A stretch of DNA of 64,000 bases from Mycolicibacterium aromaticivorans JS19b1 = JCM 16368 (GTDB lineage Bacteria; Actinomycetota; Actinomycetes; Mycobacteriales; Mycobacteriaceae): assembly GCF_000559085.1 (NCBI RefSeq), contig NZ_JALN02000001.1, positions 2,232,001 through 2,296,000 of the forward strand, read 5' to 3'. The translations under genes were made by a program, and so were the position numbers. Below are positions 8,907-62,828 of the stretch, piece by piece. The notes beneath the pieces are model-generated. The model was given only the letters and a program-made list of their open reading frames with translations. It was not told the DNA's origin and ran no database searches. Within the stretch, counting starts at the first letter, position 1; the number at the start of each line of letters is the position of its first letter.

Positions 8907-8980
<74 letters not shown>

Positions 8981-55684: not shown

Positions 55685-55972
55685 TCAAGGCCGGGGCAGT
55701 CTTCGGTGCAGCGGATTGGTGGTGACCGGGGTGTTCCGGCGACCCGCACCGGGCAGCCGTTGCACCACATCCGGGTGCTCGGCACTGGCCCGGGTGCGAT
55801 CCTGTAACTGCATCGCGGCGGTGCGCCCGACGCCGAGCGCGGGTGCGCCGAACAGTCGCCGCGCCGGTGCGGCGCATCGTGGGCAGGCATCCTGACCCGG
55901 TACATCGGCCATCGGGTAGATCGCACTGAAGTCGGGACAACCGCCGGGGCAGCGGAACTGATACGTCGGCAT
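55685..55972 (-). CDS. fmdB: FmdB-family zinc-ribbon protein
   Basis: A 95-residue protein from ATG 55972 (MPTYQFRCPGGCPDF). Two cysteine pairs, CPGGC and CPRC, form a zinc ribbon followed by a disordered arginine/proline-rich tail. FmdB was first described as a regulator of formamidase expression in Methylophilus. It is divergent from fmdA here, the classical pairing. A second ATG three codons upstream is in frame; the MPTYQF start is the family standard. Some 130 bases separate it from fmdA and include one copy of the ACTTYCANNTGG motif. Confidence 0.87.
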   Translation of the reverse strand: MPTYQFRCPGGCPDFSAIYPMADVPGQDACPRCAAPARRLFGAPALGVGRTAAMQLQDRTRASAEHPDVVQRLPGAGRRNTPVTTNPLHRRLPRP

Positions 55973-56055
55973 GACCGACACGATAACCGTTCGCCGGCAA
56001 CGTCATACGCTGTTAACGCGCAGGATTCGCCTGGGATATATATGGTGTTTTGAAT

Positions 56056-56071
56056 ACTTCCATTTGGAACG
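56056..56071. promoter_or_regulatory. Amide-regulon motif, fmdA copy
   Basis: ACTTCCATTTGGAACG: a TTCC-N4-GGAA inverted repeat 32 bases before the fmdA start. It shares the 12-base core ACTTYCANNTGG with sites at 57841 and 60912 in front of the AmiC-like and permease genes. Adjacent DNA is A/T-rich (GATATATATGG), unlike the rest of the window. Confidence 0.68.
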
Positions 56072-56102
56072 ATAGGGATATACCGACGCCGAGGAGAACA
56101 CT

Positions 56103-57356
56103 GTGCCCGAACTGCTCTTCCCATTGGACTCGACGAAGAAGTTCACCGACCAGCAGATCGTCGGACACAACCGCTGGCACCCCGACATTCCCGCGGCCGT
56201 CACGGTCAAACCGGGCACCAGCTTTCGGGCTCATTGCCGAGAATGGTTCGACGGCGCCATCGTCAACGACGATTCCGCACAGGACATCCTGAACGCCCCG
56301 CTCAAGGGCGTGCACTGCTTGTCGGGTCCGTTCGCCATCGAGGGTGCCGAACCCGGCGATCTGCTGATCGTCGACATCCTGGATGTGGGGCCCATCCCCC
56401 AGGAAGACTCCGGGCCGCTGGCCGGACAGGGCTGGGGCTACACCGGCATCTTCGCCAAGGAGAACGGCGGCGGATTCCTCACTGACCAGTTCCCCGACGC
56501 CTACAAGGCGATTTGGGATTTCTCCGGCCAGAGCGCGACCTCCCGGCACGTCCCCGGAGTCAAGTACACCGGCATCGTGCATCCCGGTCTGATGGGTACC
56601 GCGCCCTCGGCCGCGCTCCTGGCCAAGTGGAACGCGCGCGAGGGCGCGTTGATTGCGACGGACCCCGAGCGGGTGCCGCCGCTGGCGCTCCCCCCGGAAC
56701 CGCAGGACGCCATCCTCGGCAGCCTGACCGGTACCGCCTTCACCAAGGCCGCCGCCGAGGCCGCCCGCACCGCACCGCCCCGGGAGAATGGCGGCAACCA
56801 GGACATCAAGAATCTGACCAAGGGCACCCGGGTCTTCTATCCGGTGTTCGTGCCCGGGGCGAACCTGTCGTTCGGCGACCTGCACTTCTCCCAGGGCGAC
56901 GGCGAGATCACCTTCTGCGGCGCCATCGAGATGGGCGGATTCCTGGACTTGCATGTCGATCTCATCAAGGGCGGCATGGACACCTACGGCGTGCACGAGA
57001 ACGCGATCTTCATGCCCGGCAACACCGATCCGCAGTATTCGGAGTGGATCGCGTTCTCGGGAACGTCGGTCACTCTCGACGGCGAACAGAAGTATCTGGA
57101 TTCCGATCTGGCCTACCGGCGGGCCTGCCTGCACGCCATCGACTACCTGACCAAGTTCGGCTACCGTCCCGAACAGGCGTATCTGTTGTTGGGTTCAGCG
57201 CCCATCGAAGGCCGGCTGTCCGGAGTGGTAGATATCCCGAATTCGTGTGCCACGGTGTATATCCCGACGGCGATCTTCGAGTTCCCCGTCGCACCGTGTG
57301 CGGCCGGCCCCCATCAGATCGATCCGGGCATGGGCGCCCCACACGCCGCGTTCTGA
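56103..57356 (+). CDS. fmdA: Formamidase
   Basis: A 417-residue acetamidase/formamidase-family enzyme that hydrolyses formamide to formate and ammonia. It starts VPELLFPLDSTKKFTDQQIV at GTG 56103 behind GAGGAGA. Family marks: HNRWHPDIPAAVTVKPG, REWFDGAIVNDD, GPFAIEGAEPGDLLIVDIL and VHENAIFMPGN. No signal peptide, so cytosolic. It is divergent from fmdB and convergent with a marR gene whose stop lies five bases beyond. The motif at 56056 suggests shared regulation with the amide sensor and permease. Confidence 0.94.
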   Translation: MPELLFPLDSTKKFTDQQIVGHNRWHPDIPAAVTVKPGTSFRAHCREWFDGAIVNDDSAQDILNAPLKGVHCLSGPFAIEGAEPGDLLIVDILDVGPIPQEDSGPLAGQGWGYTGIFAKENGGGFLTDQFPDAYKAIWDFSGQSATSRHVPGVKYTGIVHPGLMGTAPSAALLAKWNAREGALIATDPERVPPLALPPEPQDAILGSLTGTAFTKAAAEAARTAPPRENGGNQDIKNLTKGTRVFYPVFVPGANLSFGDLHFSQGDGEITFCGAIEMGGFLDLHVDLIKGGMDTYGVHENAIFMPGNTDPQYSEWIAFSGTSVTLDGEQKYLDSDLAYRRACLHAIDYLTKFGYRPEQAYLLLGSAPIEGRLSGVVDIPNSCATVYIPTAIFEFPVAPCAAGPHQIDPGMGAPHAAF

Positions 57357-57361
57357 CCGAT

Positions 57362-57808
57362 TCAGATCGACGCGAGGTCCTGGCCGCGAATCGCCGCCAG
57401 GGCCTCGCCCAGGCGCGCGGACAAGTCGGCGTGCCGGGCCACCAGGTGGACCAATTCGTCGGATTTCGCCAGCCGGGCACGAACCCGCTGATAGGCCGCC
57501 GTCCCACGCCGGGTCTGGTACACGAGCACCCGGCGCCGGTCGGCGACATCGACCTTGCGCAACACCAGATTGTCGTCGACCATGCCGTCGATCAGCCGCG
57601 TCAGACTGGGACCGGGCAAGAGCGTCGCGGCACCAAGGGCCGACATCGCCTTACCCTGACCCCCGGCCAGGGCACTCAGCACATGCCACTGTGCCACCGT
57701 CATGCCGTCCAGCTCGGCGGCCACCGCGCGATCCAGTTCGTGCACGACCGTTTTCGCCAGACGCGACAGTTCTTCGATGGCTCCTGGTGCGTCTGAGATG
57801 GCGTTCAT
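57362..57808 (-). CDS. MarR-family transcriptional regulator
   Basis: A 148-residue winged-helix protein (MNAISDAPGAIEELSRLAK). The DNA-binding domain has WHVLSALAGGQGKAMSALGA, LLPGPSLTRLIDGMVDDNLV and the wing VDVADRRRVLVYQTRRG. Helices at both ends form the dimer. The gene converges with fmdA and diverges from the AmiC-like gene, with a CTTTC-N5-GAAAG inverted repeat 34 bases upstream of its own start. This makes it the best candidate for the repressor that reads the repeated motif in this region. Ligand unknown; an amide is possible. Confidence 0.9.
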   Translation of the reverse strand: MNAISDAPGAIEELSRLAKTVVHELDRAVAAELDGMTVAQWHVLSALAGGQGKAMSALGAATLLPGPSLTRLIDGMVDDNLVLRKVDVADRRRVLVYQTRRGTAAYQRVRARLAKSDELVHLVARHADLSARLGEALAAIRGQDLASI

Positions 57809-57840
57809 ATCGCCTGGGAGCTTACCTGGGAATTACCGAA

Positions 57841-57856
57841 ACTTTCAGCTGGAAAG
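57841..57856. promoter_or_regulatory. Amide-regulon motif, marR/AmiC-like copy
   Basis: ACTTTCAGCTGGAAAG contains the perfect inverted repeat CTTTC-N5-GAAAG. It lies between marR and the AmiC-like gene, 33 bases before the marR start. It shares the core ACTTYCANNTGG with the fmdA and permease sites. Confidence 0.68.
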
Positions 57857-57962
57857 AAATCCTGGCCGCCCGGGGGTATCTTGACAGTGATCGCCCCGGC
57901 GGTGCAGTCAGGGTCACACAGTATCCGTCGTCGTCCCCGATTCGGGTGAGGTGGTTGAGGAT

Positions 57963-59027
57963 ATGGAACGCAACCGCGATGCGGTCGATATCGCGCTGGT
58001 GGTGCCGCTAAGCGGGCCCGCGGGCATTTTCGGACCGTCGTGCGAGGTCAGTGCCGAACTCGCCGTCGCCGACATCAACGGCGCCGGCGGCATTCTCGAT
58101 CGACCCGTACGCGTGCACCCCGTCGATGCGGGCGCTCCGCTGTGGGCGTTGTCGGCCCAGGTCCGGCGCCTGATCGACACCGGCAGGATCGATGCCGTGG
58201 TGGGGTGGCACCTGTCCAATGCCCGCCAGGTCATCACCCCGCACACTGCCGGCCGGGTGCCCTACGTCTACACCACGTTCTACGAGGGCGGCGAGAACAA
58301 CGCCGGCGTCTACATGGTCGGCGAGACGCCGCAGCAGCAACTCTTCCCCGCTCTTCAGTGGCTGCGTTCCAATCGAGACATCCAGCGGTGGTGCATCGTC
58401 GGCAACGATTACATCTGGCCGCGGCAGACCGCGGCCGTTACCCGCGACTACATGCGCGCCAACGGTCTGGATTTCGTCGGCGACTCATTCGTCCCGCTGG
58501 GCGCCCGAGATTTCCGGAAACCGCTGCAGCTCATCGGGTCCTCTGCTGCAGACGGAGTGCTGGTGTTGATGGTGGGTACCGACAACGCTGCATTCAATCG
58601 AGCGTTCGCCCGCGCCGGATTGCAGGAGAACAAGATCCGGCTGTCGTTGATGATCGGGGAAGATGTGCTCAGCGCCAGCGGCGCGGACTGCACGCGGGGG
58701 CTCTACACCGCCTGCGGATACTTCGAGAGCCTGGTGACGCCGGAAAGCATGGGTTTCGGATCACGTTACGAGCAGCGATTCGGCGAGGCCGCGCCGGCGC
58801 TGAACAATATCGGCGAGTCCTGTTATGAAGGGCTGCTTCTACTTTCGGCGTTGGCAGGCGCGGCAGGAAGTCTTCAGGTTCGGGCAATCGATCAGGTGCG
58901 CTCCACGGTGTCCTACCAGGGGCCGCGCGGGGAAGTTGCGATGCGCGGCACCCACACCCACCAACCCGTCTTCCTCGCCGACGCCGCCGACATGGAATTC
59001 CGGGTCATCGATCAGCTCAGCGCTTGA
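57963..59027 (+). CDS. AmiC/UrtA-like amide- or urea-binding protein without signal peptide
   Basis: A 354-residue periplasmic-binding-protein-fold protein. From ATG 57963 it reads MERNRDAVDIALVVPLSGPA, and matches the AmiC/UrtA group: VDAGAPLWALSAQVRR, VVGWHLSNARQVITP, WCIVGNDYIWPRQTAAV, LNNIGESCYEGLLLLS. There is no signal peptide or lipobox and no ABC transporter genes follow, so it should act in the cytosol, like Pseudomonas AmiC, which senses amides and controls an antiterminator. AGGTGG eight bases upstream supports this ATG. Likely role: amide sensor for the formamidase region. Confidence 0.82.
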   Translation: MERNRDAVDIALVVPLSGPAGIFGPSCEVSAELAVADINGAGGILDRPVRVHPVDAGAPLWALSAQVRRLIDTGRIDAVVGWHLSNARQVITPHTAGRVPYVYTTFYEGGENNAGVYMVGETPQQQLFPALQWLRSNRDIQRWCIVGNDYIWPRQTAAVTRDYMRANGLDFVGDSFVPLGARDFRKPLQLIGSSAADGVLVLMVGTDNAAFNRAFARAGLQENKIRLSLMIGEDVLSASGADCTRGLYTACGYFESLVTPESMGFGSRYEQRFGEAAPALNNIGESCYEGLLLLSALAGAAGSLQVRAIDQVRSTVSYQGPRGEVAMRGTHTHQPVFLADAADMEFRVIDQLSA

Positions 59028-59050
59028 CCGATGACCCGGCTTCCACCCGT

Positions 59051-60781
59051 CTAGACGGCCGGACTACTGACCTCCTCCGAAATCGAATGCACTGCAGCGC
59101 TTTCGGGCTTCTTACACATATCGTGGCACTCCTTGGTCAGAGTGCACGTCAGCGATGAGATCGCGCCGTGATGGAACGGGCAGTCGTGCACCATGTCCGG
59201 CAGTTCGTAACTTCTCTGGTCGACGACGTCGATCAGAGTCTGCCCTGCCCATAACGGCTCCTTCTCGATCTCCTCGCGCAACGGGTTGGGCCGGGCCAGG
59301 TAATACTTGCCCTTGGTGATGACGCAGATGACCGGCGAGAGCGCGAACGCCAGGGACAGCGCCAGATACGGTGACCATGCGGCCATGAATGGGCCGAACA
59401 TGTTGAAGAAGGCCAGGATCGAGAACACCGACCCCACCATCATGGACACGAAGCCCACCGGGTTGATGCTGTACAGGTAGGCCCGCTTGAACTCCACGTA
59501 GGGCGGACTGAGTTTGAGCAGGGGCTTGTTGATGATCAGATCGGCCACGATCGCGCCGACCCAGGCGATCGCGACATTCGAGTAGAACCCGAGGATCGTG
59601 TTGAGCACCGCAAACATATTGCCCAGCATCAACGACAGGGCTATCGCGATGTGCAATGCGAGGTACACGACGCGCCCGGGGTGGACGTGCAGCACCCGCG
59701 AGAAGAAGTTCGACCACGACAACGAACCCGAATAGGCGTTGGTCACGTTGATCTTGATCTGTGAGAGCAGCACCATCAACGTCGCCACTGCCAGCGCCGC
59801 GGTGTTGTTGTGAATCACCGATCCGAATCCGCCGAGGAATTGTTCGATCGGCTCGGTGGCCGCCGAGAATCCCACCTTTCCGGCGACGTAGAACGCTAAA
59901 AAGGCCCCACAGATCTGTTTGGCCGCACCCAGAACCACCCAACCGGGGCCGGCGGCCAGCACCGCACCCCACCAGCGCCACGCGGGCGTTTCCGACTTCT
60001 CCGGCATGAACCGCAGATAGTCGACCTGCTCACCGATCTGCGCGATCAGCGACAGGGCCACGCCCGCGCCCGCGCCGACACCGATCGCGGTCGCCCGCTC
60101 GGTGCCTCCGTTGCCGGCCCAGGAGAGGAATCCCTCGAAGCCGGAGGGGTCGGCATAGGCGATGAATGCAATGGGTGCCACGAACAACGCCAGCCACAGG
60201 GGCTGCGTCCAGACCTGAAACTTGGCCAGCGCGGTCATTCCGTAGAGCACGAGCGGGATGATGATCAGCGATCCGATGATGTAGCCCAACGCCAACGGAA
60301 GACCGAACGCCAACTTCATCGCCTGGGCCATGATGGCACCTTCGAGCGCGAAGAAGATGAAGCAGAAGCTGGCATAGATCAGACTGGTCAGAGTCGATCC
60401 GAAGTACCCGAAACCCGCTCCGCGCGTGAGTAGATCCATGTCGATGTTGTACTTCGCGGCGTAATAGGCGATGGGGATCCCGGTGAGGAAGATCGTCACC
60501 GCCGCCACCAGGATGGCCACCACAGCACTCGCTGACCCGTGAGTGACCGCGATGGACGCGCCGATCGAATAGTCGGCGAGATAAGCGATTCCGCCGAGCG
60601 CCGCAATCGCACACGCCATCGGGCTCCATTTGCGAAATGATTTGGGGGCGTACCGCAATGAGAAGTCTTCGATGGTGTCCTGACTCGCCCAGGTGACGAA
60701 TCGGGTCCAGGGCCCGGAGCCCGGCGGTGCGCCGGCAGGGTGCAGCTGCACTTCGCCGACCGGTTGCTCAGATGAAGTCAT
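59051..60781 (-). CDS. NCS1-family permease with Cys/His-rich C-terminal tail
   Basis: A 576-residue transporter of the purine/cytosine/allantoin permease (NCS1) superfamily with about twelve membrane helices (AIAALGGIAYLADYSIGA, LTRGAGFGYFGSTLTSLIY, INVTNAYSGSLSWSNFFSRV). Substrates in the family are nucleobases, hydantoins and allantoin; an amide or urea-like compound fits the neighbourhood. The last 45 residues form an unusual tail with HDCPFHH, C546, C552 and C556 (LTKECHDMCKK), which could hold a metal ion. It is alone on its strand and has a 38-base hyphenated palindrome upstream carrying the regional motif. Confidence 0.88.
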   Translation of the reverse strand: MTSSEQPVGEVQLHPAGAPPGSGPWTRFVTWASQDTIEDFSLRYAPKSFRKWSPMACAIAALGGIAYLADYSIGASIAVTHGSASAVVAILVAAVTIFLTGIPIAYYAAKYNIDMDLLTRGAGFGYFGSTLTSLIYASFCFIFFALEGAIMAQAMKLAFGLPLALGYIIGSLIIIPLVLYGMTALAKFQVWTQPLWLALFVAPIAFIAYADPSGFEGFLSWAGNGGTERATAIGVGAGAGVALSLIAQIGEQVDYLRFMPEKSETPAWRWWGAVLAAGPGWVVLGAAKQICGAFLAFYVAGKVGFSAATEPIEQFLGGFGSVIHNNTAALAVATLMVLLSQIKINVTNAYSGSLSWSNFFSRVLHVHPGRVVYLALHIAIALSLMLGNMFAVLNTILGFYSNVAIAWVGAIVADLIINKPLLKLSPPYVEFKRAYLYSINPVGFVSMMVGSVFSILAFFNMFGPFMAAWSPYLALSLAFALSPVICVITKGKYYLARPNPLREEIEKEPLWAGQTLIDVVDQRSYELPDMVHDCPFHHGAISSLTCTLTKECHDMCKKPESAAVHSISEEVSSPAV

Positions 60782-60908
60782 GTGCTGTCTCCTTGCCGCG
60801 TCACATGTTGTGCAGCGGCCGCTTCAGAAGGATCCGCATTTCAGACAGCACTGTCCGCGCGGCTAGAAGAGCCGGCGGAATTAGCTCCGCCGCAAGGAAA
60901 CTAACATT

Positions 60909-60946
60909 GTTACTTCCATATGGCAGTACTCCAAATGAAAAGTAAC
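60909..60946. promoter_or_regulatory. 38-bp hyphenated palindrome before the NCS1 permease
   Basis: GTTACTT (60909-60915), centre AGTACT (60925-60930), AAGTAAC (60940-60946): all three parts are exactly symmetric about the same point. Each half contains a version of the regional motif: ACTTCCATATGG on the plus strand and ACTTTTCATTTGG on the minus strand, the latter one base longer. Two dimers could bind side by side. It lies 128-165 bases from the permease start. Confidence 0.72.
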
Positions 60947-60995
60947 GCGCATGACACGTATGGTTTACGCGACGACGCAGATAGCGCTCAACCAG

Positions 60996-61445
60996 TCAGG
61001 AACAGGTCTTTCTCAGGTCCGCGAGCTTGGCAACTATCCGGTCGTTGAGTAGCGACATCTCATACATCTGCGGAGGCGGCGGCGCGCCCGGCGCACGGCC
61101 CTGGATCTGGGAACGCAGTGTCGGCAGACTGGTGACGAACTGGTTGGCCAACTGCGCTACCTCCGTGGTCTGCGCCGCCAGGCCGGGATCGGTGACTTTC
61201 TGGGAGCGCTCCGCCAGGCCATCGGCCCACTGCTGATAGGCAGCGTCCTCGGCCACCGTCGGCACGCCTTCATTGCCCTTGGAGTCGATCTTCGACGCCT
61301 GCGAGCGGCTGTAGTCCAGGAAGTCGATCACCGGCTTGCACTTCTCGGGCGGGCCGTCGAAATATTTCGACCACACCGCGATGCCCACCGCGATGACCAA
61401 TACAGAGATGGTGAGGATCCACCGCGGACGTCGTCGCACGATCAT
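60996..61445 (-). CDS. Membrane-anchored conserved hypothetical protein
   Basis: A 149-residue protein from ATG 61445 (MIVRRRPRWILTISVLVIAV). One N-terminal helix anchors an outer domain with CKPVIDFLDYSRSQASKIDS, ADGLAERSQKVTDPGLAAQT and a C-terminal cysteine (RKTCS); the two cysteines could form a disulfide. The helix content suggests a small coiled bundle. A longer start at 61517 would run into the amt promoter region. It is divergent from amt. I know similar mycobacterial proteins only as hypotheticals. Confidence 0.72.
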   Translation of the reverse strand: MIVRRRPRWILTISVLVIAVGIAVWSKYFDGPPEKCKPVIDFLDYSRSQASKIDSKGNEGVPTVAEDAAYQQWADGLAERSQKVTDPGLAAQTTEVAQLANQFVTSLPTLRSQIQGRAPGAPPPPQMYEMSLLNDRIVAKLADLRKTCS

Positions 61446-61518
61446 CCAGCCTAGCGTTCGCGGCTGAACGTTTAACGAGGCGGCAACACCACGAGGGCGT
61501 CTACGTAACAGAAACATC

Positions 61519-61574: not shown

Positions 61575-62828
61575 ATGGATACAGGGACCACAGCATTCAT
61601 GCTGTGTTGCATCATCGGGCTGACGATGATGATCCCGGGCCTGGCGCTGTTCTACGGCGGCATGGTCTCGGTCAAAAGCTCCACCAACATGATGATGATG
61701 ACGTTCGGCGCCGTGGCCATCGTCGGCGTGCTCTGGATTTTGTTCGGCTTCTCCATGACGTTCGGGACGTCCTACGGCGGATTCGTCGGCAGCCTGACCG
61801 AATTCGCCGGCATGAAGAACCTGCTGGAATCGCAGACCACGATCTCCGGCCTGCCGGTCAGTCTGTTCGCGTTGTTCCAGGCACTGTTTGCGGCGATCAC
61901 GGTCGCACTGGTCTCCGGCGCGGCGGCCGACCGAATGAAGTTCGCGGCCTGGATGGTCTTCGCGACCCTGTGGGCGGTTCTCTGCTACTTCCCCGTCGCG
62001 CACTGGGTATTCGCATTCAACGGCGTCGTCACCCCGGACGCAGTCGGCGGCTGGATTGCCAACAACCTCAAGGCAATTGACTTCGCCGGTGGCACAGCGG
62101 TGCATATCAACGCCGGTGCAGCCGCTCTGGCGGTCGCCATAGTGCTCGGCAAGGGCGCCAGCTGGGGCAAGCTGCGCAAGCCGCACAACGTCCCGCTGAC
62201 ACTGCTCGGCGCCGGACTGCTGTGGGCCGGCTGGTATGCCTTCAACGGCGGTTCGGCTCTGGCCGCGGGCAATTCGGCGGCCATCGTCATGGTCACCACC
62301 TTCGTCGCAACCTGCGCCGCCACGCTCGCCTGGCTGGCAGTGGAGAAGTTCAAAGACGGCCACGTCACCGGCGTCGGTGCGGCGGCGGGTGCCATCACCG
62401 GCCTGGTCGCGATCACCCCGGCCTGTGGTTCGGTGACGCCGGTCGGCGCGATCATTCTCGGCCTCGTCGCGGGCGCCATCTGTCCGTTCGCCGTGGGCCT
62501 CAAAGAGAAGTTCGGCTATGACGATTCGCTCGACGTTGTCGGCGTGCACCTCGTCGGTGGTGTCATCGGCACCCTGCTGATCGGCTTCCTGGCCAGCGAC
62601 ACAATGCCGAACAAGGTCAACGGCTTCTTCTACGGCGGCGGTTTCGACCAGCTGTGGCGACAAGCCGTGGCGGCCGGTGCGGTGATGATCTATTCGTTCG
62701 TTATCGCGTTCGTCATCGCATGGGCCATCAAGAAGACGATGGGTATCCGCATCTCCTCCGAAGAAGAGGAGAAGGGTATCGACACCCACGTCCACCGCGA
62801 CCCGGCGTACGAGCTCGAGTACGCCTGA
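61575..62828 (+). CDS. amt: Ammonium transporter Amt
   Basis: A 417-residue Amt-family channel with eleven membrane helices importing ammonium. It begins MDTGTTAFMLCCIIGLTMMI at ATG 61575 behind AGGAG. The twin pore histidines are in GGTAVHINAG and DVVGVHLVGGVIG; the conserved aspartate region is FNGVVTPDAVGGWI. There is no glnK next to it; instead a type III glutamine synthetase follows after 91 bases. The order amt then glnT matches an M. smegmatis operon under GlnR. It supplies ammonia for the synthetase and fits with formamide breakdown nearby. Confidence 0.95.
   Translation: MDTGTTAFMLCCIIGLTMMIPGLALFYGGMVSVKSSTNMMMMTFGAVAIVGVLWILFGFSMTFGTSYGGFVGSLTEFAGMKNLLESQTTISGLPVSLFALFQALFAAITVALVSGAAADRMKFAAWMVFATLWAVLCYFPVAHWVFAFNGVVTPDAVGGWIANNLKAIDFAGGTAVHINAGAAALAVAIVLGKGASWGKLRKPHNVPLTLLGAGLLWAGWYAFNGGSALAAGNSAAIVMVTTFVATCAATLAWLAVEKFKDGHVTGVGAAAGAITGLVAITPACGSVTPVGAIILGLVAGAICPFAVGLKEKFGYDDSLDVVGVHLVGGVIGTLLIGFLASDTMPNKVNGFFYGGGFDQLWRQAVAAGAVMIYSFVIAFVIAWAIKKTMGIRISSEEEEKGIDTHVHRDPAYELEYA

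Follow-up and report, generated by a model that had tools for sequence, protein, structure and literature searches.

What could coordinate amide-use genes that lie next to one another and yet are read in different directions? The locus considered here lies in a 64 kb stretch (the window, contig NZ_JALN02000001.1) of the 6.3 Mb, six-contig genome of Mycolicibacterium aromaticivorans JS19b1, and holds genes for a formamidase/acetamidase family amidase (fmdA), a small FmdB-type protein, a MarR-family regulator, an AmiC-like protein and an NCS1-type permease; a nitroreductase-type gene is also present. The initial annotation had proposed that one operator joins three of their promoters. We read the locus as an amide/urea-use regulon, in which the MarR protein would repress its own gene pair together with fmdA and the NCS1 permease, a repression that the AmiC-like protein would relieve, and we put the probability of this reading at roughly three in four.

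A shared palindrome at three promoters

The 12-mer ACTTYCANNTGG occurs exactly three times in the window (56056–56067, 57841–57852 and 60912–60923), against 0.10 copies expected from shuffled sequence, and none of 100 shuffles reached three. A 13-base version, ACTTTTCATTTGG, is present on the minus strand at 60931–60943, where the initial annotation had placed it at about 60930–60942. All four copies are intergenic, which upholds their earlier placement in control regions: they lie in the fmdB–fmdA gap, in the gap between the divergent marR and AmiC-like genes, and upstream of the permease gene. The wider palindrome, approximately ACTTYCATATGRAAGT, is specific, and it is this longer form, about TACTTYCATATGRAAGTA, that makes up the signal and not the bare 12-mer.

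The motif is recovered independently of the window

Loci of AmiC relatives were collected by protein search from named genomes (30 loci, numbered here with the prefix L), and more loci were added from further genomes. A palindromic motif was then learned by expectation maximization (EM) from 46 promoter regions of 20 loci, with the window left out and random words as starts. All six best seeds converged on TTCCANNTGGAA with A/T flanks, at a log-likelihood of 397.6 against 22–35 for shuffled regions, the shuffled controls having been run with fewer seeds and fewer iterations, and overlapping registers being counted by the model as sites. The four best separate places for this window-excluded model in the 64 kb window were 56055, 60911, 57840 and 60927 (Table 1).

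Because the training loci L015–L017 are closely related to the window, EM was repeated on other genera only, using 23 regions from 11 loci and allowing one site per region. This other-genera model, ATTTTCATATGAAAAT, reached a log-likelihood of 114 against 16–26 for shuffled regions; the next solutions, at 90 and 83, were another register and an unrelated palindrome. Among 63,985 window positions it ranks the four sites 1, 2, 3 and 5. An 18-column variant without the one-site limit was set aside, having settled at the junction of tandem boxes and left the window sites unranked. Since a model built from other genera finds the window sites, the operator appears to be real and to reach beyond the genus, and the proposal of one common operator for the three promoters is borne out. 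Judged by comparison, the predicted regulon and its operator are well supported.

Table 1. Features of the locus, with positions counted from the first letter of the window
Feature	Position	Strand	Basis
fmdB-type small zinc-ribbon protein gene, divergent from fmdA	55685–55981	-	NCBIfam TIGR02605, 37.2 bits (cut-off 31.3)
TTGAAT, putative -35-like hexamer immediately 5' of fmdA operator	56050–56055	+	read by eye; inference
Predicted fmdA promoter operator, TACTTCCATTTGGAACGA, 14.8 bits	56055–56072	.	rank 1, window-excluded model; rank 3, other-genera model
fmdA, formamidase/acetamidase family amidase, 417 aa	56103–57356	+	Pfam FmdA_AmdA, 576 bits; NCBIfam FormamaseFmdA, 696 bits
MarR-family regulator, 148 aa, recognition helix GPSLTRLIDGMV	57362–57808	-	Pfam MarR_2 PF12802, 43.4 bits (cut-off 27); alignment
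Predicted marR/amiC-like gap operator, AACTTTCAGCTGGAAAGA, 12.1 bits	57840–57857	.	rank 3, window-excluded model; rank 2, other-genera model
AmiC-like protein, 358 aa, Peripla_BP_6	57951–59027	+	Pfam, 236.9 bits
NCS1-type permease, 576 aa, conserved Cys/His-rich tail	59051–60781	-	relatives' names and PF02133; predicted fold
TAGTTT, putative -10-like hexamer of permease promoter	60898–60903	-	read by eye; inference
Predicted permease operator box 1, TACTTCCATATGGCAGTA, 12.6 bits	60911–60928	.	rank 2, window-excluded model; rank 1, other-genera model
CTGCCA, putative -35-like hexamer of permease promoter, spacer 17 to TAGTTT	60921–60926	-	read by eye; inference
Predicted permease operator box 2, TACTCCAAATGAAAAGTA, 11.9 bits	60927–60944	.	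rank 4, window-excluded model; rank 5, other-genera model
GlnR-type box, GTAACGCGCATGACAC (AC-n9-AC), abutting box 2, upstream of permease promoter	60942–60957	+	consensus from PMC3662644
Protein of 173 aa, no family match	60996–61517	-	Pfam/NCBIfam scan
amtB	61575–62828	+	family scan

The operator also occurs as a tandem. A second core was counted near strong sites 25 times at 15 bp, the cases coming from related loci and not being independent, and five times at 16 bp, while other distances above 1 bp occur at most three times each. Matrix-based spacing gives the same tandem, register slips producing the range of 15–16 bp. Control loci show no tandem at 15 or 16 bp, though they offer just nine strong sites as anchors. 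In the window the permease promoter has this form, with CANNTG cores at 60917–60922 (CATATG) and 60932–60937 (CAAATG) 15 bp apart, and the fmdA operator has a weak partner box (5.1 bits, start 56041). As 15 bp is about one and a half helical turns, two dimers would by geometry sit on nearly opposite faces of the DNA.

The site follows the MarR gene across loci

In Mycolicibacterium and Nocardia the fmdB/fmdA/marR/amiC/permease set is found again, and Pseudonocardia and Gordonia (the latter on a cut contig) have parts of it; the order of the genes differs. Orthologous loci of other species and genera keep the site, a comparison that the initial annotation had called for. A survey at a threshold of at least 9 bits, descriptive in that its 22 loci beside the window are mostly training loci, placed sites in 16/16 permease promoters, 19/23 marR–amiC gaps and 8/13 fmdA/fmdB promoters (window counted; two regions shorter than 40 bp dropped). 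One surveyed locus, L081, has no marR before its contig ends. In L030, L032 and L035 fmdB precedes fmdA, and the box stands before fmdB instead.

Sites of at least 9.5, 11 and 12.5 bits occur in 21, 19 and 17 of 24 held-out MarR–AmiC loci, none of which had entered the learning. Among ten Nocardia AmiC loci without a detected relative of the window MarR, one has a site reaching 9.5 bits and none has one reaching 11. The AmiC relatives in these ten loci (L021, L023–L029, L031 and L036) are 66–68% identical; the sole site of at least 9.5 bits is in L029, and in L021 a MarR-type gene of another kind lies 2.5 kb away (by eye). We also inspected 8–10 kb of each of 20 fmdA loci without such a MarR protein, where sites anywhere in the locus number 7/20, 5/20 and 1/20 at the same three thresholds. 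Their fmdA/fmdB promoters score at most 5.6 bits in 18 of 20, the other two being L093 (14.8 bits) and L096 (12.3 bits). In both of these the site (at 2705 and 4028, respectively) precedes a distant amidase paralogue in the opposite orientation, and the genome has a MarR–AmiC locus elsewhere with the same boxes, so that the regulon may act there in trans. The only close MarR–AmiC loci found for these two genomes are L117 and L118, elsewhere in the respective genomes; a second MarR–AmiC locus is present in 5/20 control genomes.

Of marR, fmdB and amiC, it is marR whose presence agrees best with that of the site, and the MarR protein is the likely reader on this comparative ground. GlnR, FmdB or an unlinked factor might read the palindrome instead. 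FmdB proteins are commonly described as regulators; amtB and a glutamine-synthetase-like gene (named by eye) lie next to the locus, and a GlnR-type box adjoins the operator. We regard such a reader as quite improbable: the GlnR consensus, Gn2AC-n6-GnAAC (PMC3662644), differs from the palindrome, and AmiC loci lacking a relative of the window MarR lack sites of 11 bits or more, as given above. FmdB, tried as a candidate reader, was rejected: fmdB is present in 20/20 control loci, yet 18/20 of their fmdA/fmdB promoters have no site. Its presence in all 20 means that FmdB does not explain the site, and it is probably not the reader.

The recognition helix of MarR points the same way, as a hint. 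In aligned box-bearing loci it contains TLTR, SLTR, TLTK or TQTR. The helix of L109 and L112 reads SVLSK; these loci lack the box, and their marR–amiC gaps have GGCGACCNTAGTCGCC in common instead (L109 7880–8103, L112 9102–9280), a possible switch of operator through a change in the recognition helix. L113, with TVTR, has no box either. This correspondence remains a hint since the loci are few and related, and L018 has the usual helix but no box. Two divergent fmdA–AmiC pairs without detected MarR, L105 (10168) and L111 (10508), carry a variant palindrome, TTCCCATNTGGGAA.

The same site extends to AmiC loci that are merely ~44–51% identical and carry other cargo genes. Operator-bearing loci include three with AmiS (L110 and L117 by sequence, L114 by Pfam) and one with nitrile hydratase (L108, by Pfam).

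Observations that weigh against the regulon

A number of observations weigh against this reading. The marR–amiC gap has no site near threshold in 3/22 other loci (L018, L034 and L043) and scores 8.7 bits in L033, and the three nonetheless have the usual recognition helix. Sites at fmdA are weak in L034 (7.5 bits) and L104 (8.1 bits). Ten held-out loci have marR and amiC in the same orientation; there the intervening gap is free of sites, and the site lies in another part of the locus. Conversely, a site of at least 11 bits is found somewhere in 5/20 MarR-less loci, namely L093, L096 and the unexplained L089, L101 and L103, and 2/3 fmdA–AmiC loci without detected MarR carry a site scoring 9.5 bits or more. 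Kinship among the loci means that none of these counts are of independent events. The GlnR pattern discussed below is loose, with 0.17 matches per 150 bp in sampled loci, and also fits part of the MarR box. Finally, short forms of the motif are not specific in the genome. The initial annotation had held that a motif common in unrelated intergenic regions would refute a common operator, and the bare 12-mer, taken alone, would fall to that objection, at 14 copies genome-wide against 11 for a reversed-pattern control. The exact bare-core tandem has 11 matches elsewhere in the genome, so that the spacing pattern alone is unspecific too.

The scores of the operator model in this genome cover 12-mer and 16-mer pattern matches. 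The three window 12-mers score 12.1 to 14.8 bits. The 11 copies outside the locus, of which a crude open-frame test puts eight in coding sequence, do not exceed 11.7 bits, a value reached by a noncoding copy (G000:C1:3869906) near a Nudix-like gene (named by eye) with no amide context; a looser 16-mer search added one coding site at 12.0 bits. The exact bare-core tandem occurs at 12 places in all, and the permease site alone among them resembles an operator. As genome-wide markers we rejected the bare 12-mer on the count given, the 16-mer with up to three mismatches (265 against 222 control matches per strand) and the bare-core tandem with one mismatch (177 against 191 per strand).

Distribution is patchy, as for an exchanged module. 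Across 301 genomes of the family, the MarR protein (E ≤1e-20) is found in seven and a permease at least 80% identical in five, some permease relative occurring in 118. Across 118 genomes of the genus, fmdA (E ≤1e-60) is found in 32, whereas an AmiC with 60% identity or more is confined to two genomes, the window's own among them. Recent kinship or exchange of loci could alone have kept the sites, or they could be chance AT-rich palindromes in GC-rich DNA, and both the patchy MarR gene and the commonness of the bare 12-mer fit such an account. We consider it very improbable indeed, given that promoters of other genera yield a model that finds the window sites, that the tandem has a fixed 15-bp spacing seen in no control, and that the same site accompanies diverged AmiC genes with different cargo.

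Promoter anatomy and a GlnR-type box

The predicted promoters suggest how repression might work. The box is preceded by TTGAAT not only at fmdA in the window but also in L015, L019, L020 and L034, and by CTGAAT in L016 and L017; MarR bound just 3' of this hexamer would block RNA polymerase. At the permease promoter, box 1 lies over the -35 region and spacer and box 2 immediately upstream, where two dimers would probably be bound. The -10-like hexamer varies among Mycolicibacterium relatives as TAGTTT, TAATTT, TAACTT or TAGCTT. A search of the permease leader against Rfam gave no notable match to a riboswitch or any other catalogued RNA, the sole match being a microRNA family at E 0.66 within the permease gene.

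An AC-n9-AC match abuts the twin boxes in 8/8 mycobacterial permease promoters (window, L015, L016, L017, L019, L020, L037 and L104). At fmdA/fmdB the pattern is found in L019, L020 and L034, and in the window only partly, by eye. Upstream of amtB, TCTACGTAACAGAAAC (61500–61515) resembles a GlnR box; it is identical in L016 and differs by one base in L017. GlnR targets in M. smegmatis include the acetamidase/formamidase family gene MSMEG5358 and amt1, as listed in PMC3662644. The window resembles that nitrogen regulon in the AC-n9-AC box upstream of its permease, a putative GlnR site, and differs in that the palindromic operator is a separate element. GlnR activation is plausible, in which case the permease would need both nitrogen shortage, acting through GlnR, and an inducer that releases MarR.

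The AmiC-like protein as candidate antirepressor

We propose that the MarR protein binds the palindrome TACTTYCANNTGRAAGTA at fmdA, in the divergent marR/amiC gap and at the NCS1 permease, and that the AmiC-like protein, on binding formamide, urea or another short amide, would relieve this repression. Binding and repression by MarR, and the action of AmiC on it, are what we infer; the sites, their conservation, the 15-bp spacing and the MarR–AmiC link come from comparison. The antirepressor role, its ligand and GlnR activation are plausible elements of the scheme.

The AmiC-like protein, whose nearest named relatives are in Mycobacterium and Mycolicibacterium, matches Pseudomonas aeruginosa AmiC (1pea) at E 6.4e-24 in a search of PDB sequences. 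It also scores 177.7 bits with the UrtA model, far below the cut-off of 492.75. No signal peptide is visible at its N-terminus by alignment of N-termini, and a Pfam scan of eight neighbouring proteins found no ABC transporter subunits. On these three grounds we rejected its identification as the UrtA component of a urea ABC transporter. It is apparently cytoplasmic and kin to amide- and urea-binding proteins.

Direct binding of small ligands is known for many MarR proteins. The window MarR could both bind the sites and itself sense the amide or its product, leaving the AmiC-like protein merely co-regulated and serving uptake or another step. The kinship to UrtA-type proteins would suit such a role, and the ten Nocardia amiC genes without a relative of the window marR qualify any argument from gene neighbourhood. 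We judge direct sensing by MarR to be unlikely: in Mycolicibacterium, Nocardia, Gordonia and Pseudonocardia marR and amiC stay side by side with changing amidase and transporter, the lack of a visible signal peptide and of ABC parts among the scanned proteins tells against uptake, and AmiC is reported as a positive regulator in M. smegmatis (PMC12719403). The AmiC-like protein as the relieving partner of MarR is the reading we retain.

Enzyme and permease of the locus

For fmdA, formamide as the firm substrate was rejected: in a comparison of the window fmdA, L105 and L106, the acetamidase-type amidase of L106 passes the same NCBIfam formamidase equivalog (649.7 bits, cut-off 500), which is unfit to separate formamidase from acetamidase. 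The MarR winged-helix domain exceeds its curated cut-off, and the FmdB-type protein falls slightly below that of Pfam Zn_ribbon_8 (33.1 bits, cut-off 34.4).

The named proteins closest to the permease are annotated as purine-cytosine or allantoin permeases. PF02133 has no match in the window protein and is given for several relatives 80–88% identical; no Pfam or PDB sequence match was found for the window permease itself. Its predicted model, of moderate confidence (pLDDT 69), has 2jln Mhp1 (E 1.4e-8) and 7qoa CodB (E 5.1e-8) as top Foldseek matches. An NCS1 (Mhp1/CodB) fold is thus supported by prediction, in agreement with the earlier identification. In the C-terminal ~45 residues, Cys 534, 546, 552 and 556 and His 537 are invariant in 25/25 aligned sequences; extra cysteines (CxxC, CSLCC) occur in 16/25, and the window permease is without these. 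The tail may bind metal or sense redox state.

Relation to known amide switches

The initial annotation knew of no comparable control set; one of the same kind is on record, the acetamidase regulon of M. smegmatis, with AmiC and AmiD as positive regulators and AmiA as the negative one according to a 2025 review (PMC12719403). These roles agree with two titles in reference lists, 'amiA is a negative regulator...' (Parish 2001, in PMC4523840) and 'AmiC, a positive regulator...' (Venkatesan 2018, in PMC13209695). The arrangement described here is a variant of this acetamide-use switch already known in mycobacteria.

A held-out locus, L106, allows a closer comparison. Its layout, AmiC / MarR – FmdB-type – AmiS – FmdA_AmdA amidase, corresponds to the acetamidase operon order of M. 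smegmatis (amiC, amiA, amiD, amiS, amiE). Operator boxes are found at 8945 and 9463, in two gaps, the best between the MarR and FmdB-type genes and flanked by TTGACT and TATATT. AmiA is reported to bind between amiA and amiD in gel shifts, the gap that holds the best box in L106. The window MarR is only ~40% identical to that of L106 over residues 35–109. The window shares with the acetamidase regulon a divergent MarR–AmiC pair and an FmdA_AmdA amidase under the same operator as in L106. It differs in that its amidase forms a transcription unit of its own apart from marR, its FmdB-type gene is divergent from fmdA, and an NCS1 permease, with a GlnR-type box abutting its operator, takes the place of AmiS; no AmiS_UreI channel was found by Pfam among the eight window proteins scanned.

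Two further systems invite comparison. Nitrile hydratase of Rhodococcus rhodochrous J1 is reported to be controlled by NhhC and NhhD, AmiC-like and MarR-like regulators of an amide-induced enzyme. Here the likeness is that the nitrile hydratase locus L108 carries the window operator; the differences are the cargo and the placing of marR and amiC on the same strand in L108 and nine similar loci. In P. aeruginosa, AmiC is likewise the ligand sensor of an amidase operon, to which the window protein's match with 1pea corresponds. There the partner, AmiR, is an RNA-binding antiterminator (PMC13209695), whereas the conserved partner in the window is a DNA-binding MarR protein; no ANTAR antiterminator was found by Pfam among the eight neighbouring proteins scanned.

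More broadly, we offer tentatively the view that AmiC sensors across Actinobacteria swapped the Pseudomonas antiterminator for MarR and came to use a common operator code, TACTTYCATATGRAAGTA, either as a single site or as a 15-bp tandem with two MarR dimers on nearly opposite faces. Amide-loaded AmiC would strip MarR from the DNA, and the code would control formamidase/NCS1, acetamidase/AmiS and nitrile hydratase clusters alike.

In the literature searched, with most subscription papers outside its reach, we found no published operator for the acetamidase repressor and no formamidase/NCS1/MarR/AmiC regulon; as far as this search went, what is new is the operator, its tandem arrangement and the variant that combines formamidase, NCS1 permease and GlnR-type box. 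The acetamide switch of M. smegmatis has been a mycobacterial expression tool since the 1990s, according to PMC12719403 and PMC4523840. A precise operator, its 15-bp tandem and the recognition-helix hint would make the repressor's operator, and the action of AmiC without AmiR, testable. For the NCS1 permease they predict a double switch, amide-specific and dependent on nitrogen starvation, and the operator would allow amide, formamide and nitrile regulons to be sought by sequence in other actinobacteria.

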